From a virus, in IMG/VR virus record IMGVR_UViG_3300031521_000011, positions 1 through 64,000 of that record: a stretch of DNA of 64,000 nucleotides; one strand, written 5' to 3'. The notes below the pieces were generated by a model. The model searched no databases. It was not told where the DNA came from and saw nothing but the letters and a program-made list of their open reading frames with translations. Positions 1-57,555 of the stretch are shown here, one piece after another. Position 1 is the stretch's first letter; every line of letters starts with the position of its first letter. A program made the translations under genes and the position numbers.

Positions 1-228
1 GTCCCATGCCTTGATGATTCGGAAGATGTCGATTACGACAGAGGGGCTAGGGTCGGGGCGATTGAAGATATCCCCACCGCATAGTATGGCGGAGACCTGA
101 TTGTTGTGGGCAATCTGCCCTACCTCCACCAATTTCTCTTTAATGGTGGTAAAGTAATCGTCCTTCCTGGACTTGGGACTGACCCCCGTTATATGGGGGT
201 CAGTCATGAACAAGAATCTAAGACTCAA
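1..228 (-). CDS. SbcD/Mre11-type DNA nuclease subunit, N-terminal fragment
   Basis: Only the first 76 residues are in the window; the gene runs off the left edge. After a hydrophobic strand (SLRFLFMTDPH) come the first two calcineurin-type metallophosphoesterase motifs, a DxH at residues 10-12 and GGDIFNRPD near residues 51-59. This pattern is typical of SbcD, Mre11 and T4 gp47 nucleases, which process DNA ends with an ABC-type ATPase partner. The start is TTG at 228-226: it lies 8 nt after AAAGGATG, which overlaps the end of the NAMPT gene, and it places the DxH at the usual distance. ATG at 207 would cut into the first strand. The partner ATPase would be expected just outside the window. 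Confidence 0.8.
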   Translation of the reverse strand, partial: MSLRFLFMTDPHITGVSPKSRKDDYFTTIKEKLVEVGQIAHNNQVSAILCGGDIFNRPDPSPSVVIDIFRIIKAWD

Positions 229-234
229 TTGTGA

Positions 235-1761
235 TCATCCTTTCAAGTCTGGAAATACATAGGGTCGCTGGCTGGCTAGGCGAGCCCGAATATCTGCCAA
301 TGTGTCATCAACCATAAGCTTTCCATCCAGGAATATATCTCGCATAAGATCATCGCTCATGGCCAATTCCCTATCAGCGGCAGAGAGTTCGTCTTGGTAG
401 TAGATTTCATTGTGGAAATCATCCATCAGCACAGCCACCATGCCCTTCTGGGATTTCTTGAAGTGGCTCTTGTCGGTGATGGGGTTCTTAAACAACTTCA
501 TCTCCTCGCCGTTGCAAACAGAATAGGTTGTCTTCAGGGCAAAGCCAAAGGTATCCCTTGTGACATACTGATAGGTAAAGGAGCCAATGCCGTATACCAT
601 ATTGGTAGAGGCAAAACCCTTGGCCATCAGGCGCTGGCAGATCTCTCGGCAGCGATCAATTGTGATAGCGTCGCCATAGATGCAGCCAATGTGTGTATCG
701 AGTTGCTTGAATCCATTTTTGGTGATCGTTCCTCCGAACACCTCCCACAGCAGCTCAATGGCGCCTTTGCGTTCCCATTCAGTCTCTCCATCGGGATCGC
801 CGCACACGATCAACACCGGGTCACCGGAGTCAGGCCGGATAACGACGCGGCCGTTGCGAGCCATGATGTTGGGCTTCAATGCCGGAAGTACCTGCGTCAG
901 GATCTTCCAGAAGTCCCATGTGTCGCTGACGATGCTCACGAAACCAGTCGGCTCAACATCTTCAATGATATGCCTGTAGGATTCCACTTCATCCGTTTGA
1001 CCGTGGCCGGCAGCTTCCATGACGGAATGCTCCGTGGCCGGGATTGATGTACCAACGAGCTCTTTCTCAATGTTAGCATTATAGAAATCTTCCATAGCCA
1101 TGATGGCCGGGATGGTGTCTGTGCCAGTAAAGGAGAGAAGGTGGCCCATACCACTGAGCTTCGCCGCCTCCAGGCAGGACATGCCGCGCATTGAAAAGTC
1201 GTGCCCTTGGAACTGCACGAACGTCGGGTCTCCGCCGGATACATGTGCATAGAAATCCAAGATACGACGATACTGGTCCGCAATCGTGGCGCTGGTGGAC
1301 GCCTGCCAGATCTCACATGACATCAATGTTTCCAGGCTGTTGGTGAGCCAGAAGAAATCCTTGTGAGTATTCTCGATGGTAAGCTGCGGGCACCTGATGG
1401 GCGTAAGGGTACCTTCCGGCACGGCACGGATGCGGATTGGCAGATAGTTGAGGTTCTTCAGCGCAACTATATGGGATGCATCAGGATTCTCCACGCCGAG
1501 AGTGTACTTGATGATGCGCTTGTATTCGGATATAACCTCATCCATCGTGCGCTCGAAGAAGAACTTGTTGAAGTACCAGATCAGATACTCCTTAACGAAT
1601 GCTTGATAGCCGAATGCGACTACCCTATCAACGCCGTCGATGCGGGACATTCGGGGCGTCCATGTGGAGTAGATGACTTCAGTACCCACAGGATACTGCT
1701 TGCGGTGCGACACCTTATAAAAGTCGCAAAGCAATGTTGCTGGATAGATGTAGTTCCCCAT
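235..1761 (-). CDS. nadV: Nicotinamide phosphoribosyltransferase (NAMPT/NadV family)
   Basis: The protein has 508 residues, close to the family norm of about 490. The family makes NMN from nicotinamide and PRPP; the Namat branch of phage NARP1 instead uses ADP-ribose pyrophosphate to make NAD+ directly. Recognisable blocks in order are QGHDFSMRGMSCLEAA, FTGTDTIPAI, SIPATEHSVMEAAG, VSDTWDFWKIL, VIRPDSGDP and the GDAITID/YGIGSFTYQ region around the active site. The start has a clear GGAGGAG site. The PRPP-synthetase-like gene lies 14 bp upstream in the same operon, so the two products probably act in sequence. Whether this is classic NAMPT or Namat cannot be decided from motifs alone. Confidence 0.93.
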   Translation of the reverse strand: MGNYIYPATLLCDFYKVSHRKQYPVGTEVIYSTWTPRMSRIDGVDRVVAFGYQAFVKEYLIWYFNKFFFERTMDEVISEYKRIIKYTLGVENPDASHIVALKNLNYLPIRIRAVPEGTLTPIRCPQLTIENTHKDFFWLTNSLETLMSCEIWQASTSATIADQYRRILDFYAHVSGGDPTFVQFQGHDFSMRGMSCLEAAKLSGMGHLLSFTGTDTIPAIMAMEDFYNANIEKELVGTSIPATEHSVMEAAGHGQTDEVESYRHIIEDVEPTGFVSIVSDTWDFWKILTQVLPALKPNIMARNGRVVIRPDSGDPVLIVCGDPDGETEWERKGAIELLWEVFGGTITKNGFKQLDTHIGCIYGDAITIDRCREICQRLMAKGFASTNMVYGIGSFTYQYVTRDTFGFALKTTYSVCNGEEMKLFKNPITDKSHFKKSQKGMVAVLMDDFHNEIYYQDELSAADRELAMSDDLMRDIFLDGKLMVDDTLADIRARLASQRPYVFPDLKG

Positions 1762-1775
1762 TTGTTATTCTCCTC

Positions 1776-2621
1776 CTATTTATTTATTGTATCGTTAAGT
1801 AGATCCAGCACCGTAAATTTGCTGTTGTAGTGGGTAAGTATGCTGTTGGTTGTGAACACCCTTTCGATGAGTGTGCTGTCCGGAATCTCCCCTTCGTTGA
1901 CCGTGTCCTCGCAATGGCCAACGAGAAGATATATTGCCCCGGCATTTCTAGCCTTCAATGCTTTGGCACCCATCATGAATGTTCCGCCTCTGGAGCATAG
2001 GTCATCAATCATCAATACTTTAGCCCCCGCCAAGCCCTGGCCGAGGCTGGGCTCACCTATACCAATGATCTGGAGGTCCTTGATTACCCCTGTGTCAAAG
2101 TCTCTGTCCTTGTGCCCCACTAATACCTTACGGAATTTGAACATCTTGCCATACCGCTTGGCTGCACCGGCATCCGGGAAATAAGCATAGTCATTTCCTA
2201 TATCGAACTTAGACAAGTGAAGCGCCTGCTGGAGCAACTCCTGTGTAAAATATCTGGGTGCGCTTCTATCCACAAGGGCCATGACAACATCTGAGTGCGG
2301 CTCGCCGATCTCAACAATATTGAATTCAAGAGAGTTGATAAACTCAGCCACATACTTCAGTGTAAATACGGAATTGTTTTCCACCCGATCCATGCGCTCA
2401 TAAGGCATGTAGTACATCTTGAGATTACAACTGCCGCCGTAGGATTGGATGTGCCTGACCACAAACATTAGTTTTATAAGGTCTGCATCACTTTGATACC
2501 AGAACTGAATGTTGCTTACGGCGCCCTTAAATATATGTGAGTTAATAAGGACTGGCTTGATGTTTGTCTCACCGTTGGGAAATTGTTCAAATGAAAGGCG
2601 GTTTCCGTTTAGGAAAATCAT
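1776..2621 (-). CDS. Ribose-phosphate pyrophosphokinase family protein (Prs or Adps-like)
   Basis: This 281-residue protein is shorter than cellular Prs (about 315) but has the family hallmarks: PYERMDR in the ATP-binding region and the PRPP loop VLMIDDLCSRGGT near residues 200-212. Prs makes PRPP from ribose 5-phosphate and ATP. In the phage NARP1 pathway a homologue (Adps) pyrophosphorylates ADP-ribose. Its position directly upstream of the NAMPT gene fits either a PRPP supplier or Adps. Its start codon overlaps the stop of the upstream gene (ATGA), suggesting translational coupling. Confidence 0.88.
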   Translation of the reverse strand: MIFLNGNRLSFEQFPNGETNIKPVLINSHIFKGAVSNIQFWYQSDADLIKLMFVVRHIQSYGGSCNLKMYYMPYERMDRVENNSVFTLKYVAEFINSLEFNIVEIGEPHSDVVMALVDRSAPRYFTQELLQQALHLSKFDIGNDYAYFPDAGAAKRYGKMFKFRKVLVGHKDRDFDTGVIKDLQIIGIGEPSLGQGLAGAKVLMIDDLCSRGGTFMMGAKALKARNAGAIYLLVGHCEDTVNEGEIPDSTLIERVFTTNSILTHYNSKFTVLDLLNDTINK

Positions 2622-3028
2622 TCTCTTTCTCCTCCTGTTTCTTCCAAATCGTCCTCTGGCTCATCGTCCTCATCGAGGGTTGCTTCCTCCCCCTCGGCGG
2701 CTGGCTTCTTTACCTTTTTCTCCTTATTGATGCGGTCCGTCCTTAGCGCAGATATGTAACTCCGGCCGACACGCCGGATGACAAGCGCTTCATAGATATT
2801 GCCATCTTCATCGCAAAGGAGGTACTGCGTGGAATCCCTGGCCTTCTCCGGCACCATGTCTTTGTGGGGAGATAAGCCAAGAAATGAGAGCTTGGTTGAC
2901 TTTGTGTACTTCTTATCCTTGTCTGTGCAGGTATACTTGTAGTCGATTTTGTCGAAGAGGGCTGAGGATCTGCTCAACTCAATAGAGAGGTTCTTGTTAA
3001 AAAACCTCTCTTTGGATGGAACTGACAT
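2618..3028 (-). CDS. Unknown protein with acidic C-terminal tail
   Basis: A 136-residue protein I do not recognise. The start at 3028 (MSVPSKERFF) is chosen because GAGG lies 7 nt upstream; an in-frame extension to 3067 has no ribosome site. The first 105 residues are mixed charged and hydrophobic. The last 35 are rich in Lys then Glu/Asp (KKVKKPAAEGEEATLDEDDE), like flexible acidic tails of DNA-mimic or nucleic-acid-associated proteins. It sits between the dNMP kinase and Prs genes in one operon. Confidence 0.7.
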   Translation of the reverse strand: MSVPSKERFFNKNLSIELSRSSALFDKIDYKYTCTDKDKKYTKSTKLSFLGLSPHKDMVPEKARDSTQYLLCDEDGNIYEALVIRRVGRSYISALRTDRINKEKKVKKPAAEGEEATLDEDDEPEDDLEETGGERE

Positions 3029-3042
3029 GATGATACCTCGCT

Positions 3043-3612
3043 TTATATAGAAATGTCGACAAGCCATGCTGTGATTTTGCGTTTAAATTCGGCAATACAT
3101 ATGCCGGTATTGTCGATCATGGAATCACATAGTCCGTTATCCATGATATACTGTGCGCTGATTTCCGTTTCGTGTTTGAATGCTGTTTCTTGGTTAAACC
3201 CGTCGCGGCCCCTCAGGCGCAGCGCTCTGACGAATGGGTCTGCCTGTACGCCTACGACATGAAAACCGCGCTTCTTCCAGAACTCGACCTCGTTAACCTG
3301 GCGGCCGTCGGCAATGACGAATGGATAGGGTGCGGAAGAGAAGGCGCCCGCCAGCATGCTCATTGAGTTCAATGTTGCCACATTCCAAACATCGGGCCCA
3401 TAATTTTTCCGTGCCCACTGGCCATATTCCTGGTATAGCTGCCTTTTCCTGTCCGGTGTTTCGTCGTAGTACAGCAAGTCTACGTGCTCCCTGATCCACC
3501 TCCCCAATTTAAGGGTGCGATAATCAGCCAGCTCATGGAGTGTGTCAGCCACAGTGTCTTTTCCACTGCCCATACATCCAATTATGAGAATGTTTGGAAA
3601 TTTCTTTGCCAT
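3043..3612 (-). CDS. Deoxynucleoside monophosphate kinase-like P-loop kinase
   Basis: A 189-residue kinase with Walker A GCMGSGKDT at residues 12-20, directly after an ILII strand, and a lid-like region with RALRLRGRD. The size and GSGKDT variant match phage dNMP kinases, which convert dNMPs to dNDPs; dephospho-CoA kinase shares the fold and is the main alternative. The neighbouring dCMP deaminase and nucleotidase favour the nucleotide role. The ribosome site GGAGGAG touches the 3' arm of a strong hairpin just upstream. Confidence 0.75.
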   Translation of the reverse strand: MAKKFPNILIIGCMGSGKDTVADTLHELADYRTLKLGRWIREHVDLLYYDETPDRKRQLYQEYGQWARKNYGPDVWNVATLNSMSMLAGAFSSAPYPFVIADGRQVNEVEFWKKRGFHVVGVQADPFVRALRLRGRDGFNQETAFKHETEISAQYIMDNGLCDSMIDNTGICIAEFKRKITAWLVDISI

Positions 3613-3672: not shown

Positions 3673-4605
3673 TTACCTTTCAGGTAAAGTGATTTGGGAC
3701 ATCTGTACACCCTTCTTTGCCAGAAGTTTTATGGTGTTCTGGTCGGGGCGGTACTCATTATAGTAATATATTCGCTTAATGCCCGCCTGCAGTAAAGTCT
3801 TTACGCAGATGTAGCATGGGCAGTGAGTGACGTAGATCTCGGCGCCGTCACAGGAATGGCCAAGCCTTGCGCTTTGGATCAATGCATTGGCTTCAGCATG
3901 CACTGTACGGATACAATGTCCATCAACCATCAGGTGCCCCACATCATCACAGTGATCATCACCAGAGACACTGCCGTTGTAACCGGTGGCTATGAGCATA
4001 TGGTTCTTGGCAATGACGCAACCGACACGAGCCCTGTCGCAGGTGGCCCGGGTGGCCGCCTCCAGCGCCAGGCGCATGAAATACACCTCCCACGACTCAC
4101 GGCGGAAAGGATTTTCACATTTAGTCGGAGGATTATTGAGTGTTGCCAAGGCTTTATCCTTGTATTCACTGGAAATTTTACCTTGCTCAACAAGTCTTAT
4201 CATGCGGCTTTGAGGAATCTTACCAAACTCGATACTGAATTCAGTGAATCTTTTTAGCATCCAAAAAAGCCGCTGCATTTCATCTCGTTCATCAATTGTA
4301 AAGGTGTACTCTGCAGGATTTGTGAGCCGATTTACAACATACTCATCATCAATTACAACAATAAGCTCCTTGTATTCGTGAAGAAGTACCCTTTCCGCCT
4401 CAAGAAATATTGCGCGAGCGTACCAAAACAGCTTCGTCGGCTTGGCCTCATTGACATTGACACGAATAAGACCATCTTCTCCGAAGCTTATCTGAGCTAT
4501 GGAGTTTTTGATGATTGGGTATGTGACAGGTTTTCCCTGAAGCTCATTCAGGAGTCCACTCGAAATGCTTTCAACTCCGGCGTAGTAAACAGTTGATGTT
4601 TTCAT
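3673..4605 (-). CDS. dCMP deaminase with a long N-terminal extension
   Basis: The C-terminal 140 residues form a zinc-dependent cytidine/deoxycytidylate deaminase domain. HAEANA gives the first zinc ligand and the catalytic Glu, and PCYIC gives the two Cys ligands; the fold begins around WEVYFMRLALEAA. It should deaminate dCMP to dUMP, feeding thymidylate synthesis. The first 165 residues are not deaminase and I do not recognise them, making the protein about twice the usual 150-180 residues. The start overlaps the upstream stop as TAATG, so translation is probably coupled to the nucleotidase gene. Confidence 0.88.
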   Translation of the reverse strand: MKTSTVYYAGVESISSGLLNELQGKPVTYPIIKNSIAQISFGEDGLIRVNVNEAKPTKLFWYARAIFLEAERVLLHEYKELIVVIDDEYVVNRLTNPAEYTFTIDERDEMQRLFWMLKRFTEFSIEFGKIPQSRMIRLVEQGKISSEYKDKALATLNNPPTKCENPFRRESWEVYFMRLALEAATRATCDRARVGCVIAKNHMLIATGYNGSVSGDDHCDDVGHLMVDGHCIRTVHAEANALIQSARLGHSCDGAEIYVTHCPCYICVKTLLQAGIKRIYYYNEYRPDQNTIKLLAKKGVQMSQITLPER

Positions 4606-5183
4606 TATTCCTCCTCTTGGAATATGTTTGTGAAGAAGCGCTGCACGTCGTTATGGTTAAAGAGATGAATACCCACATACCCCATATTATGAGTATAGTC
4701 ACCGAAGCAAATTTTTGTGCCTTTGAACTGGCTCATGCTGACTGGGCTGTCGTCCATCAGGAATGCCCGCGTCTCTGGCGGCTCTGCCAATACGGACTTG
4801 TTTGGAGAAATGAATGTCTGCCCCATAGTCGTCAGCATGATAACATTCTCAACGAATGGAGCATATTTCTCAAGCCACCAATATTTCCCCGGGGCGGCGC
4901 TGGCGAATGCCTGTGTGGCAATTATCAGCCTGGCGTTCTCATGAATCATCCTCATGGTATCAATGGCGCCGGGCAGCGGATAGAGATACTTGAAGAACTG
5001 AGGAGTGCGATACACGTTGGTAACCCATTCTTCGGAGCATTTGGTGAAGTTTGGATGACCCCATCCGCCGGCGGAGGTAAGGTTCTCGTGGAATTCTTCA
5101 TTGTATCTGTTGACGATGCCGGCATCCGTATCGACGGTGGTCAGGTCCATGTCCATGTAGACAATAATGTCATCCCTACGCAT
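4605..5183 (-). CDS. HAD-family 5'(3')-deoxyribonucleotidase-like protein
   Basis: 192 residues with the HAD motif I aspartates in VYMDMDLT (the nucleophile and acid/base pair DxD), motif II in LIIATQA and motif III/IV aspartates in AFLMDDSP. This matches the NT5C family, which dephosphorylates (d)NMPs. In a phage nucleotide operon it may trim unwanted nucleotides or dUMP. Both ends are coupled by TAATG overlaps with its neighbours. Confidence 0.75.
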   Translation of the reverse strand: MRRDDIIVYMDMDLTTVDTDAGIVNRYNEEFHENLTSAGGWGHPNFTKCSEEWVTNVYRTPQFFKYLYPLPGAIDTMRMIHENARLIIATQAFASAAPGKYWWLEKYAPFVENVIMLTTMGQTFISPNKSVLAEPPETRAFLMDDSPVSMSQFKGTKICFGDYTHNMGYVGIHLFNHNDVQRFFTNIFQEEE

Positions 5184-5777: not shown

Positions 5778-6114
5778 CTGGAGCCTCCAATAAATGCTTG
5801 ATTTGGGTAAAAATCTCAGGTACCAGGCAAACAGTAATATTGATAGGCTGAATGCTTGGATCATCGAAGAAACCATGCAAACCCATCCTATCCAGGCCAT
5901 AATCCTTGTGCCATGAAATAAAGCAGCCAGTATTGTGCACTTGCTGTAGGACGGCCGCCATATCATTTAATGGAGAATAGTCATTACTCTTTCCTCCGCA
6001 CTTGAAGTGAAGGGTTCCTTTATCAATAGCTTCCTTAATTTGAGCAGCAAGTATTATTCCTTTTTCCATGCCATATCTGAAGTCTTTTGGGATAGCGAGA
6101 TCGTACCTTTCCAT
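5755..6114 (-). CDS. Unknown 119-residue protein
   Basis: Not recognised. The start has GAGGTG 6 nt upstream. The composition is that of a compact globular protein, with no membrane segment. It is the first gene after a TGCTATAAT extended -10 element and heads the leftward nucleotide-metabolism run. Confidence 0.65.
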   Translation of the reverse strand: MERYDLAIPKDFRYGMEKGIILAAQIKEAIDKGTLHFKCGGKSNDYSPLNDMAAVLQQVHNTGCFISWHKDYGLDRMGLHGFFDDPSIQPINITVCLVPEIFTQIKHLLEAPDGVHPQV

Positions 6115-16886: not shown

Positions 16887-17786
16887 ATGGAGAAAATAGC
16901 GGAAGAATCAAATGCTCGCGCAATGAAGGGCGCCAACTCGGAAAGATTGTATACCGCACTGCGCCTGGCTGAGCTGAAAGAAGTGGAGCAATATAAAAAG
17001 GATAACAAGAAATCTATCCTTACCGGCGTAGCGGCCGGCATTGCTCCCCCTGTGATCGGTGCTTTGATTGGCTCTCGTATTGGGAGCAAAGAATACAGAG
17101 GCGCCAGGGCTATTGCTGGCGGAATTGCGGGCGGCGTCCTTTCTCCATTTACTGGCACGGGCGCCTATGTCTTAGATGCGTGGCGAAGGGCAAACAAAAG
17201 AACCTTCAACCACCCGGCGCTGGTGAGAGAAATGCTTGAGGAGAAGAATGCCTCCGAGGATCGCATCGATATGTATAAAGACCAAATCATGGAAAAAGTA
17301 GCAACATCCGCATGGCGCTCTCGCGTTCACCATATGTTCAACGCCGGGGATATTCATGGTGCTGCAGATATGCTCGGCAGGATAAAAGCATCTCCATACA
17401 AGAGCCTTGTAGCTGATTCTTTTCGTAAGGGCGCTACAAACGATGCCTATCTGTTACTCAAGCAGAATGGCAAAGATGGATTGATGAAGGGTATTGCTAA
17501 TCTCCAAGAATCATTAAAGATGCGTCAACGAGCTGGAGAGGCTCTAATCACAAGCTCGCCAAAGACTGGATTTGTTCACTATGAATTGGAGTCTGCAAGA
17601 AGGTCGCTGAACAACAATAAGCAGCGGTTGGCTGATAAGACTCAGAGGTACGGCGCAACACCTAGCCCAAAGAATCAGGAATATCTGAATGATCTAAGGC
17701 AGCGTATCCGGAGGGATGAAACTGACCTGCATCGCGCCAAAACAAACGCCCGTGTTTATCTCAATGGAGCCAAGGGTAATAAGTAA
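16887..17786 (+). CDS. Tagged membrane-type protein with SAW(R/K)SRV domain
   Basis: 299 residues with AGGAG upstream. It starts MEKIA, then two Gly/Ala-rich hydrophobic segments (LTGVAAGIAPPVIGALIGSRIG and AIAGGIAGGVLSPFTGTGAYVL). An internal tag, MYKDQIMEKVA, precedes SAWRSRVHHMFNAGDIHGAADMLGR. The same block after a tag occurs in the helicase gene at 17851 (SAWKSRVRNMIHAGDLKGAS). The rest is basic and helical. The hydrophobic zippers suggest membrane insertion, perhaps during DNA entry. Confidence 0.7.
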   Translation: MEKIAEESNARAMKGANSERLYTALRLAELKEVEQYKKDNKKSILTGVAAGIAPPVIGALIGSRIGSKEYRGARAIAGGIAGGVLSPFTGTGAYVLDAWRRANKRTFNHPALVREMLEEKNASEDRIDMYKDQIMEKVATSAWRSRVHHMFNAGDIHGAADMLGRIKASPYKSLVADSFRKGATNDAYLLLKQNGKDGLMKGIANLQESLKMRQRAGEALITSSPKTGFVHYELESARRSLNNNKQRLADKTQRYGATPSPKNQEYLNDLRQRIRRDETDLHRAKTNARVYLNGAKGNK

Positions 17787-36265: not shown

Positions 36266-36757
36266 TTATTTTATAAAGAACGCCAGCGCCAGCAGCGTCA
36301 GTTCATGGAGCCTGTGGTCGATGCCGATGTGCATGAACCAGAAGTGCGGATCTTCCTCAATCTGCTCTTTGGTCATGCCTTTTAGCTTCAGTATCCACTT
36401 CACAGGGATTCTGGTATCAATGAATGCATGTGTAACGAATAGATAGAGAAATATGAGGTAATAGTATGGAATCTGAATGATCAGCGTGTTCATAAGGAAC
36501 ATTGTAATAATGCTTGTAGCGCCGGCGTATATTAGGGAATGACTGACAAGGGCTAGAATACTATTCGATATAGATGGCATCTCCGTTTCAACTTTAAGGG
36601 CGCGGATCGGAAAACCAGGTCCTACCGGCCATTGAGTAATCTTCTTTCGAGGCCCCCAGAAACTCTTGTTGGCCGCCTGCCATTGATCCTGAAACACCCA
36701 ATCGACAAACGTGCCAATTATGAACGTGATGATGAAGAATTTGACATTGAGCTCCAT
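36266..36757 (-). CDS. DUF3307-like membrane protein
   Basis: 163 residues, four or five hydrophobic segments. GTFVDWVFQDQWQAANKS, the LVSHSLIYA helix, VTHAFIDTRIPVKWIL and IGIDHRLHELTLLAL match in order the pattern of DUF3307 membrane proteins (D near the start, two His/Asp blocks later), possibly a membrane metal hydrolase. Confidence 0.65.
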   Translation of the reverse strand: MELNVKFFIITFIIGTFVDWVFQDQWQAANKSFWGPRKKITQWPVGPGFPIRALKVETEMPSISNSILALVSHSLIYAGATSIITMFLMNTLIIQIPYYYLIFLYLFVTHAFIDTRIPVKWILKLKGMTKEQIEEDPHFWFMHIGIDHRLHELTLLALAFFIK

Positions 36758-37263
36758 TTAATCATTACCTCCAATACTTCATGTGTGACATAGTTTGCCA
36801 TGAAAGAGTGATCACGATGGGTGAATACTTCATTTGCCATCGTAGATGAAATCACTGGAAACCGTGACCTGATATACACTGTTTCCATGCTCGACCAGAG
36901 TTTCCGGTTTGCTTCAGCGAGGATTTCCTCCTGCATGAAGTCGTTGACATTGCGAATCCCGCGAACGAGGTAGTCAATGCGATCATCGTGAACGAGGCTA
37001 AAGTTGTGAGCGGCGTCAACAGTGAATTGCTTCGATTCTATGAAGATAATCCTATCTTCATAGTCATGGTGCAGAAACATATTCTTTGCGGCAGCCATCA
37101 TCTCGTGCATATTATACTTGCGCTGCTTGGTAGGATTGATGGCGAAAAGGACATACACCCTGTCGAACAGGTCCAGCGCCTGTTCGACAATATCTGTGTG
37201 TCCGTGGGTCCAGGGATCAAATGTGCCGGCGTAGATGGCATTACATATCCTTCTTTGGCTCAT
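36718..37263 (-). CDS. CoaD/NMNAT-like nucleotidyltransferase
   Basis: 181 residues from the start at 37263, 6 nt after GGAGG. GTFDPWTHGHTDI (HxGH-like residues 20-22), a YLVRGIRN loop and ISSTMANEV at the end are the HIGH and ISSTxxR-type motifs of phosphopantetheine adenylyltransferases and NMN adenylyltransferases. It transfers AMP to a phosphate-containing acceptor. If NMN is accepted it would finish NAD+ synthesis from the NAMPT product; PPAT activity is the simpler reading. Confidence 0.75.
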   Translation of the reverse strand: MSQRRICNAIYAGTFDPWTHGHTDIVEQALDLFDRVYVLFAINPTKQRKYNMHEMMAAAKNMFLHHDYEDRIIFIESKQFTVDAAHNFSLVHDDRIDYLVRGIRNVNDFMQEEILAEANRKLWSSMETVYIRSRFPVISSTMANEVFTHRDHSFMANYVTHEVLEVMIKWSSMSNSSSSRS

Positions 37264-50616: not shown

Positions 50617-51093
50617 CTACGCCTCCGCAGGTGTTGGGTCTCCGGCGATGTGCACATCAATCAGGATGTATTCCATAGGCTTTACGGGAGTGACTTGTCG
50701 ACTCACAATAAAGTACGCATCGCTCTTCCATTTGATTACATCGACGACGGACGTTCCGCCGTATATTTCATACCGGATGGTTATGACTGACGAGGAAAGC
50801 TCCTCGTCAGTCACCTCTGGCACTTGATCATTGTAAAAAAGTCGCAGGGCAACTCTTCTTGCATTGATATCGGGCATTGATTTTTTCCTCCATTGATCTG
50901 CAGTATATTCAACCAAAAGGGGTACACCGATCAGATCATCTATGTAGGTATGTGGGCAGAAGTCCTTCCATTTGATTCCTTCAGACTCCGCCCAGATTTT
51001 GAGTAACTCGAGAGCCTGGTCCGATTCGGCATCTTCGTGCGCAACCATGACGATACACAGTTGTCGAATCCAGAGTTTGAACAGTGGGTTCAT
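50617..51093 (-). CDS. Unknown 158-residue protein
   Basis: Starts overlap the end of ligA (ATGA). N-terminal helical part with CPHTYIDDLIG, C-terminal beta-rich half. No family is recognised; operon context only. Confidence 0.6.
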   Translation of the reverse strand: MNPLFKLWIRQLCIVMVAHEDAESDQALELLKIWAESEGIKWKDFCPHTYIDDLIGVPLLVEYTADQWRKKSMPDINARRVALRLFYNDQVPEVTDEELSSSVITIRYEIYGGTSVVDVIKWKSDAYFIVSRQVTPVKPMEYILIDVHIAGDPTPAEA

Positions 51094-53102
51094 TTTATCA
51101 TCTCCAGGAAGTCTGCCTGAGAGATACAGGGGATTCCCAAAGAAACCGCCTTCTCCTGCTTGCTCCCGGCGTTTTCACCCACCAGCACAAACGACGTCTT
51201 CGCCGATACGCTGCCGGATACCTTACCACCATTCTTCTCAACCAGCTCTTCAGCCTCCTTGCGCCCAAGCGTCGGGAGCGTACCGGTCACAACAACAGTT
51301 TTACCTTTAAGAACGCCGTCAGCAACGAGTACTTCATCCTTCGGGCGCACGCCGGCGGCATACATCATGTTGAGCGCATCGATATTCGTCGGGTTATCGA
51401 AGAAGTCCCTGATGGACGTCGCTACGATGTCCCCGATATCCTGAATGCTCATCAGCTCATCATAGGTGGCCTTGAAGACATTGTCAAATGTGCCAAACCT
51501 CTTGGCAAGCCGTTTTGCAGTTCCCTCTCCGGAGTTGGGCATGCCCAGCGCATAAATGAAGTGCTTGAGGTCCGGATTTTTCGCAGCTTCGATTGCCGCC
51601 AGCAACTTCTCAACCTTCCGCACACCCACCCCTGCAAGCTGACACATTTCATCCTTGTAGGTATGCAGATAGAAGATCGAATCGATGCCCTTCAGCATGC
51701 CGGCATTGAACAACAATTTGATCGTTTGCTCACTGAGGCCGTCGATATCAAGGCAATCCTTGGATGCCAGGTGTGTCATCGCACCGACGATTTGCGGAGG
51801 ACAGCTCAGTGTATTGCTGCAGAATATATGCGCACCAAACTCAATAACTGCAGCTCCGCAGGCCGGGCAGACGACAGGAACAATTACATTCCTCTCAACA
51901 TTAGAATCGATGCCGGCATCATTCGGTGCGGAACCCATGATCTCGGGGATGACGTCGTTGCTACGGCGGATCCACACCCGTCCATTGATCTTTACTTGCT
52001 TTCTCTCAACGTCGCCAGCGTTGTTAAGCGTCGCCCGGCGGATGGTTGCGCCACCAATATCAATCGGGTCCACTTCGGCGACAGGTGTCAGCTTGCCTGT
52101 GTGGCCGACTTCCCATACAACATCGCGTATCGTGGTGATAAGCTCTTCAGCCTCGAACTTCCAAGCGATGGCCCACCGGGGATACCTGTTTGTCCACCCA
52201 AGAACATCGCGCGTGGGGAAGTCGATAACCTTGATAACGGCTCCGTCGATGAGATAATCCAGACCACTCCTCTGTTTTTGCAGTCCATCAATTTCCTCGA
52301 TGATTTGCTCGATGCTACCGGTGGCCTTTAGGAAGCGGTTGGTGGGGAATTTGTTCCAGCGCAGGAACTCCATCATGTCCATATGGCCGTTCATTACGCC
52401 GCCGGTTGGGCTCATGGCATTCGGGAGGTCAATGTAGTTGACGTTATAGAAGAACGCCCTGATCCCCCGGGCGGCCGTTTCTTTAGGGTTGAGATTGCGA
52501 ATCGCGCCGGCCACGGCGTTCCGTGCATTCTTCAATTGCGACTCTGACTTGGCGTTATATGCGGCCAGCGCTGACAATGGCATATACGCCTCTCCCTGAG
52601 CCTCTAGGAGCCCTTTGTACGGTATCGAAAGAGGAACCGTCTTAATGGTCTTGACCTGCTCCAGAACGCACTCTCCGGTCTCGCCGTCGCCCCTGGTGGT
52701 AGCCTGAATGAGATTGCCCTCATTGTATGTGAGATTGATTGTCAACCCATCGAACTTCATCTCAAGAGCATACTGAACCTTTGGAAGATTGTACTCCACT
52801 GCAGTGGCTTCAATCTTGGCAGCCCATGAGCGCAGGTCATCAATCGTCCGGACCTTATCAAGGCTATAGAGCGGTGCGAGATGTTTGTGCTGCTGGAACC
52901 CTGTCAGTGTAGCGCCGCCCACACGCTGGGTCGGTGAGTTCGGAAGGAAGTAGCCAAGTTCGGCTTCCATTTTCAGGAGGTCATCGAATTTCTTGTCATA
53001 CTCTGCATCCGACACTCTTGGCTCGTCGAGCACATAGTACCGATACGCCAGGTCATTGAGTTCATCGACGAGTAGTGCCATTGCCTCTGCCATTGGTTTC
53101 AT
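51090..53102 (-). CDS. ligA: NAD+-dependent DNA ligase
   Basis: 670 residues, full length for LigA. Domain Ia (YYVLDEPRVSDAEYDKKFDD), the adenylated Lys116 in EMKFDG, the OB fold, a four-Cys zinc finger (CPACG and CSNTLSC), HhH repeats (LAGVGVRKVEKLL and GEGTAKRLAKRFG) and a C-terminal BRCT domain (LKGKTVVVTGTLPTLGRKEA) are all present. It seals nicks using NAD+ as the AMP donor, unlike the ATP ligases of T4-like phages; this adds a second NAD+ consumer to the genome. Confidence 0.95.
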   Translation of the reverse strand: MKPMAEAMALLVDELNDLAYRYYVLDEPRVSDAEYDKKFDDLLKMEAELGYFLPNSPTQRVGGATLTGFQQHKHLAPLYSLDKVRTIDDLRSWAAKIEATAVEYNLPKVQYALEMKFDGLTINLTYNEGNLIQATTRGDGETGECVLEQVKTIKTVPLSIPYKGLLEAQGEAYMPLSALAAYNAKSESQLKNARNAVAGAIRNLNPKETAARGIRAFFYNVNYIDLPNAMSPTGGVMNGHMDMMEFLRWNKFPTNRFLKATGSIEQIIEEIDGLQKQRSGLDYLIDGAVIKVIDFPTRDVLGWTNRYPRWAIAWKFEAEELITTIRDVVWEVGHTGKLTPVAEVDPIDIGGATIRRATLNNAGDVERKQVKINGRVWIRRSNDVIPEIMGSAPNDAGIDSNVERNVIVPVVCPACGAAVIEFGAHIFCSNTLSCPPQIVGAMTHLASKDCLDIDGLSEQTIKLLFNAGMLKGIDSIFYLHTYKDEMCQLAGVGVRKVEKLLAAIEAAKNPDLKHFIYALGMPNSGEGTAKRLAKRFGTFDNVFKATYDELMSIQDIGDIVATSIRDFFDNPTNIDALNMMYAAGVRPKDEVLVADGVLKGKTVVVTGTLPTLGRKEAEELVEKNGGKVSGSVSAKTSFVLVGENAGSKQEKAVSLGIPCISQADFLEMIK

Positions 53103-53488
53103 TGTTGTTCCTCCTCAATTTTACATCCAGCAGCTTTCATAATGCGAAGCCACTTTTCTTCAGTAGTATGACCATCCCAGTTGGACTTTTCCATCTTGCG
53201 AAGATTTCCGAGATCAAAACTGTCCGGGATATGGAATGTTATCTCTCCGCCATTCAGACTTATAACCCTTAACCATCCGGCCCACGATGGATCATCGGCA
53301 TGGTCTTCATCGTAGTACCAACCTGGGCGCGCCGAGTCATCTGCTGGCCTGCAGCATTCATCCGCCCATAGGTTTGCTTCAACAGCCATTGCCAATGCCA
53401 ACATATTTCTTTCCCAATAAGCGAGGTCTAGGGCTTGTTTGGCGCTTAGATCCTTATTCCAGGTCGTTATTACTTTTGGAATTTTCAT
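53099..53488 (-). CDS. Conserved phage protein with WDGHTTEEKW motif
   Basis: 129 residues behind AAGGAGGG. GWLRVISLNGGEITFHIPDS then FDLGNLRKMEKSNWDGHTTE form a recognisable but uncharacterised phage family. No catalytic motif. Confidence 0.65.
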   Translation of the reverse strand: MKIPKVITTWNKDLSAKQALDLAYWERNMLALAMAVEANLWADECCRPADDSARPGWYYDEDHADDPSWAGWLRVISLNGGEITFHIPDSFDLGNLRKMEKSNWDGHTTEEKWLRIMKAAGCKIEEEQQ

Positions 53489-53499
53489 ATTCGCCCTCC

Positions 53500-53514
53500 T
53501 TTTATCTCTTATAC
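53500..53514 (-). promoter_or_regulatory. Promoter element copy 17 (GTATAAGAGATAAAA)
   Basis: Runs directly into the AAGGAGGG of the 53488 gene, with only 11 bp between the element and the ATG; this fixes the transcript start to a few bases. Confidence 0.65.
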
Positions 53515-53521
53515 TAAAGGT

Positions 53522-54076
53522 TTACTCTTTCTCGCTGTCAAGATATTCATTGCAGTCTTTTGGCAGCACGCAGATAGTGGCTTCAGGAGCATTTTCTTCA
53601 ATGAGTTTACGGACGATTTTCCAATCTCCTCCGGCCAGCCCGCAGCCAAGCCTGAAAGGTAAATAGAGAGGGAGGTCCAACTTGCGGGAAAGCTCCGCTA
53701 CAGTGCGAAGACATTTCGTCAATGCATCATAATCTGTCGCCACGCCAGACTGTGCGAATACACTCACTCCGGAATCCAGGTCAATTACTACATTGTCTTC
53801 GACCATCTTATTAAGAATTTTCTTAAAGTCAGTGATTCCATCCTGCGCTGCCATGTTGGCGATACAAAGATCGTTTTCAACAGCGACTGTGAGTACTACG
53901 CCGAGCTTTAAATCACCGCTCTCATAAAACTGATGATACTGCTCATATGCGTATGGGTACATTCTGCGGATCTGCAGCGCCAGGCCACCGCCCATGACGC
54001 CGATACAGTTAACCTGATGGCCAATGATTCCTCTTTTGTTGTCGAGGATGTTTCTTATTACAACATGGTTTTTCAT
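53522..54076 (-). CDS. Macro-domain ADP-ribose hydrolase-like protein
   Basis: 184 residues behind AGGAGG. GHQVNCIGVMGGGLALQIRR is the N-terminal macro loop, ANMAAQDG follows, and LPFRLGCGLAGGDWKIV is the second ligand loop. Macro domains bind ADP-ribose; this order fits hydrolysing members (ALC1/TARG1- or Poa1p-type) that remove ADP-ribose from proteins, DNA or ADP-ribose-1''-phosphate. The same genome encodes a PARP 2 kb away, so it probably reverses that modification or the host's. Substrate not determined. Confidence 0.85.
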   Translation of the reverse strand: MKNHVVIRNILDNKRGIIGHQVNCIGVMGGGLALQIRRMYPYAYEQYHQFYESGDLKLGVVLTVAVENDLCIANMAAQDGITDFKKILNKMVEDNVVIDLDSGVSVFAQSGVATDYDALTKCLRTVAELSRKLDLPLYLPFRLGCGLAGGDWKIVRKLIEENAPEATICVLPKDCNEYLDSEKE

Positions 54077-54094
54077 CTTTCCTCCTAAAAAATA

Positions 54095-54114
54095 AGGGCC
54101 CCTGGCGGGGCCCT
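54095..54114 (-). terminator. Terminator after guanylate kinase
   Basis: AGGGCCCC and GGGGCCCT form an 8-bp stem with a 4-nt loop, then TATTTTTT on the minus strand, 12 bp past the gmk stop. Confidence 0.8.
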
Positions 54115-54126
54115 GGAATGCAGGTG

Positions 54127-54741
54127 TTACAGTTGCTGTGTCTGCCGCTCAATGACATCCTTACGGATATCGTCGAACTGCTTGCAGTTGAGAGCGAAAT
54201 TATCTTCAGAGAGAATGACGTAATCCGACATGGATGGAGGAATAAACTCCTCATTCTCCACAGCATTGATGAGGCGTTCGATAGCCAGTCGATGCCTGAT
54301 ATGCTCACATGACATACTGCGAGACTTGTCTGCCAACATGTGCCTAAGACAAGTCTCGGCTGAAGCATAGAGGAATATTCTGACAATCATGCACTCTTTG
54401 GAATTGAATACTTGTTTCATTGCCGCTGCCCCTACCCGCTCCATCACGATGCAAATTTCGTCATGCTGCTGGAGTTTTTCTTCAACTTCATTTTTGGATG
54501 TGCCATACATGTAGTTGTTGTAAGGAGCTGTTTCTACAAAAAGTTCTTGTCTTTCCATGAGATCAAAAGCATAATTCCCCTTAACAAAATGATAGTTAAC
54601 CCCGTCAACTTCACCCAGGCGCATCGGGCGAGACGTATGACTGATCAGCTCGCCCATGCCATATGTAGGCTTGATATATTCATTTACCAGTGTGGTCTTG
54701 CCGGATCCAGATGGACCCACAATGATGTAGATTGTCTTCAT
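54127..54741 (-). CDS. gmk: Guanylate kinase
   Basis: 204 residues. Walker A GPSGSGKTT at residues 9-17 and the GMP-binding SHTSRPMRLGEVDGVNYHFV with Arg and Tyr contacts are canonical. It converts GMP/dGMP to the diphosphate. The later half is divergent but complete. Its stop lies before a terminator, ending this nucleotide unit. Confidence 0.9.
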   Translation of the reverse strand: MKTIYIIVGPSGSGKTTLVNEYIKPTYGMGELISHTSRPMRLGEVDGVNYHFVKGNYAFDLMERQELFVETAPYNNYMYGTSKNEVEEKLQQHDEICIVMERVGAAAMKQVFNSKECMIVRIFLYASAETCLRHMLADKSRSMSCEHIRHRLAIERLINAVENEEFIPPSMSDYVILSEDNFALNCKQFDDIRKDVIERQTQQL

Positions 54742-55172
54742 TTACTTACCCTCTCAAATATATTCCCACAGGTATAACACTCACAAAAATTTGGTTGATT
54801 AGCTACTGCTCCGCAAAGTTCCTCATTACAGACAGGGCATGGAGGAAAGTTTACTTTCCTTAGTTTACCCCGGCCGGCAGCCAGTTTAAACATTGCCGTT
54901 ACAGGTGGAGCATAATATGGAATGAAATGCCTTTTTTTGGTTCGCTTTTTGTCATATCGAGGTTCTGCTTTTTCATATCCCTCAACAAGATATCTGGCGC
55001 CCGGTGTTGGTTTAGGATTATACTTGTCTTGGTGTCTAAACCATGACAGGCCAAGCCTATCTATCACATCTTTGGGTTTTTCTCCAGGCTGGATAACGCA
55101 AATTACTTTGCCTTCCATTTTGGTTCTATGACTTCTAGATATCCATGTGACGGCTTGGCCTATAATATCCAT
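54738..55172 (-). CDS. Zinc-finger protein of unknown function
   Basis: 144 residues; two CxxC pairs near the end (PPCPVCNEELCG and ECYTCGNIF) form a likely zinc knuckle after a basic middle (DKKRTKKRHF). Behind GAGGAG; stop overlaps gmk start. Confidence 0.6.
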   Translation of the reverse strand: MDIIGQAVTWISRSHRTKMEGKVICVIQPGEKPKDVIDRLGLSWFRHQDKYNPKPTPGARYLVEGYEKAEPRYDKKRTKKRHFIPYYAPPVTAMFKLAAGRGKLRKVNFPPCPVCNEELCGAVANQPNFCECYTCGNIFERVSK

Positions 55173-55177
55173 GTATA

Positions 55178-55438
55178 TTACTCCTCTATCAGGAATCGTT
55201 CTCTGAAAACCGGATTCAATGTATCAATACATAAGTTGAGGACATTGATAAACTGTGCTTCATCCTTATCGATCAAGTTCCTCGTAATCGATGCAATGGC
55301 GTCATGGCCAGCCCAGTCGAGCTGAAGGGCCTTTTCTTCACTTAAGCCGAGAAGCAGATCAAGGGTAACAATAACGCATAGCCTGCCTTCTTCATTTTCC
55401 TTAAAAAGCCTCATTACCTCACTGAACAAACTATTCAT
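55178..55438 (-). CDS. Unknown helical protein
   Basis: 86 residues from the start at 55438, behind CCGGAGG. Helical throughout (LFSEVMRLFKENEEGRL, DAIASITRNLIDKDEAQF). No family is recognised. Confidence 0.6.
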   Translation of the reverse strand: MNSLFSEVMRLFKENEEGRLCVIVTLDLLLGLSEEKALQLDWAGHDAIASITRNLIDKDEAQFINVLNLCIDTLNPVFRERFLIEE

Positions 55439-55439
55439 G

Positions 55440-55730
55440 TCAGTCCTCCGGCATGATAAGCATAATCGTTGATCCGTTATCAATTGCCTCAAAGGCCATA
55501 TCTCCATATATTACGCTTTGATGATAACAAGCTCCTTCTGGACTGTCAACCCGCTCTTGAATCAAGCTAACAATTTTAGTTACGAATGATACCATCGATT
55601 CTCCTTCCAGTAAAGGAGTCATCGTGTTGGTGAAATTGTCAGAGAGGGTAATTCCTGATTGATATCGAATAGGGTCAAAGTCTGCGGTTTTGCAGCCCCC
55701 TTCCTGTGGCTTTAGGCGTAGTTCAGGCAT
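55440..55730 (-). CDS. Unknown 96-residue protein
   Basis: The start at 55730 (MPELRLKPQEGG) has AAAGGGA 7 nt upstream. Mixed alpha/beta; no motif recognised. It lies 1 bp from the next gene. Confidence 0.6.
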   Translation of the reverse strand: MPELRLKPQEGGCKTADFDPIRYQSGITLSDNFTNTMTPLLEGESMVSFVTKIVSLIQERVDSPEGACYHQSVIYGDMAFEAIDNGSTIMLIMPED

Positions 55731-55732
55731 GG

Positions 55733-56101
55733 TCAATCCCTTTCTTCATATTGTAATTTTTCTCCGCATCTGATTGCTCCAAAGTGAGTGTTTAGGTATT
55801 TTGAGAGGAGATGCCTGTGGCAGAATTGTCCAGGTATACAATAACAGGCAAGATGATATGTTGCCTCTTTATCTGGAAAAACCTCTTCAAAGATACCCAT
55901 GGTGAGAGCCCTATTGAGAATGTCAAAATATCTTTTCTCATATTCATCTGCCGTAATTTTCCCCTTCTTTACCTTGTTCACCATGTCCCAGGTAGGGGAC
56001 AGTGTCCGTGCATGTCCAGATGCACTCGCTGCCGTGATATCAATTACATTAGGTAGATTCAAGATGTTGGCAACCGATATTTGGACCGTGTAAACTTTCA
56101 T
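55733..56101 (-). CDS. DUF488-type protein
   Basis: 122 residues from the second of two adjacent ATGs, 5 nt after AAAGGAG. The N-terminal beta strand (MKVYTVQIS), WDMVNKVKKGKITADEYEKR and CYCIPGQFCHRHLL match the DUF488 pattern (a Cys-rich end near CHR). Function unknown; some members are linked to nucleotide or DNA repair. Confidence 0.7.
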   Translation of the reverse strand: MKVYTVQISVANILNLPNVIDITAASASGHARTLSPTWDMVNKVKKGKITADEYEKRYFDILNRALTMGIFEEVFPDKEATYHLACYCIPGQFCHRHLLSKYLNTHFGAIRCGEKLQYEERD

Positions 56102-56133
56102 CATTACTCCTTTCATGTCAAAAAATAACAATA

Positions 56134-56162
56134 AGTGCTGACAGCAAAAAGCTGTCAGCACT
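56134..56162 (-). terminator. Attenuator-like hairpin after a promoter element
   Basis: AGTGCTGACAGC and GCTGTCAGCACT form a perfect 12-bp stem with a 5-nt loop followed by TATTGTTATTTTTTG on the minus strand. It lies 6 bp downstream of the promoter element and before the DUF488 gene, so it would stop that transcript unless bypassed; it may also end the PARP transcript. Confidence 0.75.
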
Positions 56163-56168
56163 ACATAC

Positions 56169-56183
56169 TTTTATTACTTATAC
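56169..56183 (-). promoter_or_regulatory. Promoter element copy 18 (GTATAAGTAATAAAA)
   Basis: 67 bp before the start at 56101, just after the PARP stop; a hairpin separates it from the gene. Confidence 0.6.
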
Positions 56184-56187
56184 CAGA

Positions 56188-57555
56188 TTATCTGTTGGTG
56201 GAGGCAAATTCGATGATATATCGAATAGCTTGCTGACCGCTATCATATACGATGAATTCATTGTGCAATAGACTGCTTCCTGCAACTCCCTTGACACTAT
56301 CAAATCCGGAAGGCGCCTTGAGATGGTAAACGGAGTTTCGCTCCTCTTTGATCCTTCCGCAGGCGACGTCGGCGACGAATAGGAAGGCAGTGGGATGGGC
56401 ATTTTGACGACCACCGAAGCGGCTGCACGCATACTGGGTAGATTTAGTCGATTGATCAGCGAAATAGATTCCAGGTCCAAACATTGCTCCAGTGATATAC
56501 ACCCCCGACAATTGTGTTGGGAGCTTAAGGAAAGAGGAGAGAATCCCGGGCAGGTTGGCCGTTCTTGAGCCATGAAAAAGTTCTTTGACATTACCAATTC
56601 CCTCCTTGAATGCCGGCGCACGCTTCTGCTTTACGCCGAACATATTGACAGCGCTTAGCTTGACGGAGTGATGGTTGCTCTGGGAGTTGATCATATAGTC
56701 CTCCAGATGCCGCCATAGACCTGAACCACGTGGAATCGCCCAAAGATCACTATACAAGGAATCGTAGCGTTTGTCGATATCGTCGCTGACGATGACATCC
56801 TCCATGCGCAGGGAGTCCTCATAAAATTTCAACAGATCAAGCTCCATGCTGATTTTGTCATCATTACCGATGAGGACATCTTCCAGACTTATTTTCCTGC
56901 TGCCGAACGAGCGGGGAATAATGCGGCGATACTGCTCCGATAAACTCTGAATCATTGGAGCATCATGTATCTTGATGGACTTCGCAATCTCCTCAAGCGC
57001 TGCCCGGCCCATGCCGATTTGTTTATTACTGAGCTTACCAAGCGGAGCTTTCTGGTCTAGTGTGGCCTGACCATTAATGAATGAAGAAAGGGCTGCTCCG
57101 CTTTCATCGAAGATGTGTTGCACGAACTTCCGGACCTCAGGCTCAAGATTGCTCCGGTTTTCTGCTTTAATGGTAGTTGGGGCAGCAATGACTTCATTGG
57201 CGTCAATCATCTTCTGGGCTTCGGCGCTGCCAGTGGAACTCTGTGCCAGCTCGATCTCCACGTATCCCTTCTTGGTCTTTTCATGGACGATTGCACTGAA
57301 TTCCGAGCGAGCCAGACTTGCAGAGATGCCAGAGTTGCCACGCACCTGTTTTGTGGACGTTACCCCAAGCCTTCCGTATTCAGAGAAAATCCTATAGACA
57401 CCATTAGCTCCCTCATGAAGTTCAATGGTGTAGTATTTGTTCGAGTTTACGCCCACCTCAAAGAAGTTTAAGGTCTTTTTATCCACGACCTTATAGGACG
57501 AGAATGGGCTCCCCACATCCAAGTGAGGAGCCCAGTTAAGTGCGCTTAGTCCCAT
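56188..57555 (-). CDS. Poly(ADP-ribose) polymerase with WGR, regulatory and catalytic domains
   Basis: 455 residues from ATG 57555, 5 nt after TGGAGG at the end of the upstream gene. Residues 25-110 are a WGR domain (YRIFSEYGRLG) that in PARP1 senses DNA breaks; about 140-270 is the helical regulatory domain (GKLSNKQIGMGRAALEEIA); 285-455 is the ART domain. The H-Y-E triad is complete: His328 in ELFHGSRTAN, Tyr364 in GPGIYFAD and Glu433 in LLHNEFIVYD. An active polymerising enzyme is expected, in contrast to the mono-ADP-ribosyltransferases of T4. Unlike PARP1 it lacks zinc fingers and BRCT. Confidence 0.92.
   Translation of the reverse strand: MGLSALNWAPHLDVGSPFSSYKVVDKKTLNFFEVGVNSNKYYTIELHEGANGVYRIFSEYGRLGVTSTKQVRGNSGISASLARSEFSAIVHEKTKKGYVEIELAQSSTGSAEAQKMIDANEVIAAPTTIKAENRSNLEPEVRKFVQHIFDESGAALSSFINGQATLDQKAPLGKLSNKQIGMGRAALEEIAKSIKIHDAPMIQSLSEQYRRIIPRSFGSRKISLEDVLIGNDDKISMELDLLKFYEDSLRMEDVIVSDDIDKRYDSLYSDLWAIPRGSGLWRHLEDYMINSQSNHHSVKLSAVNMFGVKQKRAPAFKEGIGNVKELFHGSRTANLPGILSSFLKLPTQLSGVYITGAMFGPGIYFADQSTKSTQYACSRFGGRQNAHPTAFLFVADVACGRIKEERNSVYHLKAPSGFDSVKGVAGSSLLHNEFIVYDSGQQAIRYIIEFASTNR

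Follow-up and report, generated by a model that had tools for sequence, protein, structure and literature searches.

Genomic setting of the gene pair

The window analysed here comprises bases 1–64,000 of a 168,244-base IMG/VR virus record. Close to its first base, on the minus strand, lie the two genes of a NARP1 pair: Adps (1776–2621, 281 residues, ATG start), a Prs-like ADP-ribose pyrophosphate synthetase and the first enzyme of the pathway, and Namat (235–1761, 508 residues, ATG start), a NAMPT-like nicotinamide ADP-ribose transferase and the second. Adps is upstream, the intergenic gap is 14 nt, and each start is preceded by a strong AGGAGG-type ribosome-binding site. The original prediction had described adjacent NAMPT-like and PRPP-synthetase-like reading frames in one operon, and the gene calls agree with both parts of this: the frames occupy these positions on the same strand, and the Adps start shares 4 nt (ATGA) with the stop of the upstream gene (2618–3028, minus strand), which is further evidence for a single operon. 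This upstream gene is a gene call with a possible alternative start at 3067, encoding a putative small protein with an acidic tail and no assigned function. In the same gene run, upstream of Adps and also on the minus strand, Pfam identified a dNMP kinase-like gene (3043–3612), a dCMP deaminase (3673–4605) and an NT5C-type 5'-nucleotidase (4605–5183). Beyond Namat, the start of an SbcD/Mre11-like metallophosphoesterase gene (1–228, minus strand) begins 6 nt past the Namat stop. A scan for minus-strand terminators returned no candidate from 235 to 2621, with scan counts no better than shuffles; promoter and terminator counts over the window did not exceed those of shuffled controls and so have no bearing on the operon in either direction.

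No near DNA match to the first 20 kb of the window was found by megablast against phage records. Overlapping parts of the one SbcD-like gene are encoded at both ends of the record (window 1–228; record 167331–168236) with few base differences, and for this reason the 168-kb phage genome is probably near complete, the end differences probably being strain variation. The gene at 36718–37263 (minus strand) was considered as an NMN adenylyltransferase (NMNAT) and rejected: it scores above the curated cut-off for CoaD (pantetheine-phosphate adenylyltransferase), and the NMNAT models lie far below theirs. At least eight predicted proteins, with plus-strand gene calls starting at 16887, 19983, 21359, 40871, 41724, 43716, 45599 and 46063, have a common short N-terminal leader (MEKISMEKIA... 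or MDKVA.YKE.IYKVA) that might act in packaging or targeting. Radical-SAM-like proteins encoded at 128230–130572 of the record (L005) and at 6030–7958 of L118, a viral contig with a NARP1 relative, appear to contain an intein inserted exactly at the CxxxCxxC cysteines.

The Namat protein and its adenine clamp

The 508-residue protein matched the family models NF006629 (2e-161) and PF04095 (1.6e-40), and its top PDB matches were 9W5X and 9W5W (1.7e-210), the crystal structures of Namat from the Bacillus phage SPbetaL1 with nicotinamide and with NAD+ (PMC12774641). It is 63% identical to SPbetaL1 Namat and 66% identical to Namat from Paenibacillus foliorum; the corresponding values for Adps are 46% and 48%. 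In SPbetaL1 the two genes have the same order as in the window, and in P. foliorum, whose pfAdps and pfNamat have been characterised by in vitro assays and in tests against SPARSA (PMC12774641), they are likewise adjacent. Adps and Namat also stand side by side in this order in other Bacillota phages. The P. foliorum pair is bacterial, whereas the pair described here sits within a phage nucleotide-metabolism operon; the window phage is also distinct from SPbetaL1, with a 168-kb record that carries PARP, LigA and macrodomain genes, and its Namat has an additional C-terminal tail.

Catalysis by SPbetaL1 Namat involves F189, D215 and R306, and its adenine clamp is formed by R40, the stacking residue of the clamp loop, together with F392 and Y396; in the R40A/F392G variant, NAD+ synthesis from ADP-ribose pyrophosphate (ADPR-PP) is mostly lost while NMN synthesis is retained (PMC12774641). 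Every one of these clamp and catalytic residues is conserved in the window protein, as F189, D215 and R309 for the catalytic set and R40, F395 and Y399 for the clamp, the latter two within the clamp-helix motif GSFTYQYVTRD. All 130 relatives that neighbour an Adps gene carry Phe or Tyr at the first position of the clamp helix, and 101 of them carry Tyr or Phe at the second. Neither position has such a residue in any of eight NAMPT or NadV proteins, five NAMPTs from phages and three NadV from Pasteurellaceae, for which the fetched DNA shows no Adps (0/8 aromatic at the first, 0/8 Tyr/Phe at the second). The phage NAMPT/NadV salvage enzymes (KP15 NadV, KVP40-like phi-ST2 and phiM7) have the NAMPT fold and catalytic core in common with window Namat at 31% identity, but carry a GGGLLQ-type helix without the clamp aromatics, have no Adps alongside in the fetched DNA and form a separate clade; the phiM7 NAMPT adjoins a cytidyltransferase.

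The Adps protein compared with PRPP synthetases

Against the Prs model TIGR01251, the 281-residue protein scored 57 bits (2e-15), half the curated cut-off of 113. A Prs above that cut-off was present in all 14 control genomes, and P. foliorum illustrates the distinction within a single organism, with 377 bits for its own Prs and 91 bits for its Adps. Identity of window Adps to eight Prs is 22–30%, and in the Adps tree these eight group together on one side (support 91), with the window protein on the other side among Adps.

The general fold is nonetheless that of Prs: an AlphaFold model built with 27 sequences reached a pLDDT of 89.8, and the top of the list in a PDB search with it consisted entirely of PRPP synthetases, at a TM score of about 0.7. 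Window Adps retains the flexible-loop catalytic K171 and R173 as well as the DD...GGT framework of the ribose-5-phosphate loop, which reads DDLCSRGGT here against DDMIDTGGT in E. coli Prs, so that Arg211 aligns with Thr225 of the E. coli enzyme. The E. coli Prs sequence used as a control agrees with the partial sequence available. The loop Thr/Ser is present in 8/8 Prs, and all 138 Adps relatives have Y, K, R, G or F there instead; we infer that this change would open the pocket for a 5'-phosphate bearing AMP. A scan of viral contigs with a single Adps sequence gave no match; the alignment-based scan did yield matches.

Phylogenetic analysis of Namat

The more careful of two Namat trees has 25 rows. 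In it, window Namat groups with sequences from the viral contigs L113 and L118 (support 99/96), and this group belongs to a 15-row clade (98/94) together with both characterised Namats, from SPbetaL1 and P. foliorum; the five NAMPTs fall on one side with support 100/100, and forcing the window protein to join them was rejected by the AU test (p = 0.0003). A larger, quick tree gave the same placement, yet there the NAMPT grouping was not rejected (p = 0.155). Since most of the longest branches are absent from the careful tree, we rely on it more than on the quick one. Phylogeny and comparison of substrate-site residues were among the checks proposed with the original prediction, and both favour it: the transferase is nested with verified Namats and keeps the SPbetaL1 clamp residues, and the Prs-like protein lies on the Adps side and has Arg in place of the Prs loop Thr.

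Two observations concern relatives elsewhere in the family. Three Pasteurellaceae NadV (L076, L083 and L085) fall inside the Namat clade, yet they no longer carry the aromatic residues of the clamp, and their fetched flanks contain no Adps; judged by sequence, they look like Namats that reverted to PRPP use. In a Vibrio phage ICP1 isolate (L018, 2986–4452) the Namat frame contains an in-frame stop near its beginning, and the annotation uses a start further along; an intact Adps adjoins it.

Proposed function of the pair

We consider the pair, with a probability of about 0.9, to be a NARP1 module, likely used to restore NAD+ after a host NADase defence, in line with the NARP1 reading that had first been put forward for this locus. 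By analogy with the characterised relatives, Adps would use ATP to convert ADP-ribose to ADPR-PP, and Namat would couple this product with nicotinamide, a route to NAD+ of two steps that needs neither PRPP nor an NMN adenylyltransferase. TIR, SIR2 and SEFIR NADase defences yield ADP-ribose and nicotinamide (PMC12774641); a host NADase of these kinds, cutting NAD+, would thus supply both NARP1 inputs, and counter-defence appears the likeliest use of the window pair. A search of the whole 168-kb record found no NADAR genes, and one that had no positive control found no RyR-domain (RyDEP-like) genes. The NARP1 pair is itself of an already described type; what is new is its genomic context and, as a side result, the probable nicotinate branch described below.

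Predicted NAD+ and ADP-ribose use by the phage

The phage itself had been expected to use NAD+ through LigA and PARP, and both genes are present, on the minus strand at 51090–53102 and 56188–57555. LigA, an NAD+-dependent DNA ligase, scored 696 bits against NF005932 (cut-off 369). The PARP1-like ADP-ribosyltransferase has WGR, PARP regulatory and catalytic domains with an H-Y-E triad, and aligns to human PARP1 at 2.7e-36. Between them, a macrodomain protein (53522–54076, minus strand) has DarG as its nearest curated model (NF048014, 3.9e-14, partial), scores slightly below the PF01661 cut-off and matches PDB macrodomains at 8.5e-16. All three genes thus lie together in 6.5 kb (51090–57555).

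This arrangement raises the possibility that NARP1 mainly recycles the phage's own NAD+ products, which would add to the NARP1 chemistry and not contradict it. PARP and LigA would consume NAD+, nicotinamide would come from PARP and ADP-ribose from the macrodomain, and Adps and Namat would join the two and resupply LigA and PARP. We regard this as unlikely to be the main role, even though a single phage encodes LigA, a macrodomain and a PARP with the H-Y-E triad. PARP is rare among phages, with 14 of 50,697 records matching the window PARP, and among 41 NARP1-bearing phage records it occurs in three: the window phage, G009 and G013. The latter two have the Namats nearest to that of the window, and each also encodes LigA and a macrodomain; in G013 the LigA and PARP genes lie next to each other. 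The presumed tail-sheath protein of the window phage has no match in either of these two, and their LigA and PARP are 23–29% identical to those of the window versus about 68% for Namat; both points count in favour of recycling. Against this, 38 of the 41 NARP1 phages have no PARP, the three Namats are related and so not independent, with shared phage ancestry possible, and the macrodomain may instead reverse host DarT marks. Eight other PARP records searched comprise two Klebsiella phages with Adps and Namat relatives, two records with NAMPT only and four with neither. The co-occurrence of NARP1, PARP and macrodomain in three related records is compatible with a functional link and also with a common origin. 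A closed phage cycle of NAD+ and ADP-ribose, in which NARP1 would serve not only counter-defence but also ADP-ribosylation and DNA repair by the phage, is in our view unlikely.

We regard as very unlikely a classic salvage of the kind found in KVP40-type phages, in which Prs would make PRPP, NAMPT would make NMN from it and nicotinamide, and a host or phage adenylyltransferase would complete NAD+. The general models do name the two proteins Prs-like and nicotinate/nicotinamide phosphoribosyltransferase, just as the original prediction had said of NARP1 family members, and some PRPP activity persists in Namat relatives; since Namat retains NMN-forming activity on PRPP in vitro (PMC12774641), the donor used in the cell is not decidable from sequence. 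Several features argue against salvage: the Adps score below the curated Prs cut-off, the lost phosphate-loop Thr, the adenine-clamp residues in Namat, the rejected NAMPT placement in the careful tree, and the fact that the one adenylyltransferase-like gene examined in the window is CoaD. A nicotinate variant at this locus, with Adps and a nicotinic-acid transferase producing deamido-NAD that a nicotinamidase and NadE would have to complement, is predicted to exist in relatives of the pair but is hardly credible here, as window Namat keeps the amide-recognising D215 (D219 of human NAMPT; PMC10907753) and neither PncA nor NadE is among the neighbouring genes examined.

A predicted nicotinate branch among relatives

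Outside the window, the position of D215 is Asp in 101 of 142 aligned relatives and Ala in 41 (L067–L069, L071, L073–L075, L077–L082, L084, L086–L088, L090, L091, L093–L112, L154 and L165). A corresponding Asp recognises the amide group in Xanthomonas NAMPT, and nicotinate enzymes have Ser there (PMC10907753). The fetched DNA of the Ala-type relatives contains a PncA-like (isochorismatase-fold) gene in 39 of 41 cases and NadE in 23 of 41, counts that are not independent because these relatives form a sister clade for which the tree requires a single D-to-A change; no PncA-like or NadE gene was found near any of the 101 Asp-type relatives in the fetched DNA. The Ala-type relatives are mostly from Clostridium, Lachnospiraceae and Ruminococcus. 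Two viral contigs carry complete sets, with Adps, PncA, transferase and NadE in L154 and Adps, transferase, NadE and PncA in the 367-kb L165, and Pfam confirmed the transferase, NadE and isochorismatase-fold genes in both.

The simplest reading of these loci is a deamido branch, in which nicotinamide would be converted to nicotinic acid, joined to ADPR-PP to form deamido-NAD, and this converted to NAD+. The Ala-type clade is thus probably a nicotinate version of NARP1, with members in bacteria and on at least two contigs from phages. No published description of such a branch was found in the literature searched, whose coverage leaves out many journals.

Implications

Simple residue checks on sequence, for the clamp aromatics of Namat and the lost loop Thr of Adps, allow NARP1 pairs to be picked out behind the labels Prs and NAMPT. 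Comparison of NARP1 loci also brought to light a probable nicotinate version of the pathway in Clostridia and in some phages. In the window phage NARP1 accompanies PARP, LigA and a macrodomain, so that a connection between counter-defence and ADP-ribosylation by the phage itself can be put to the test.
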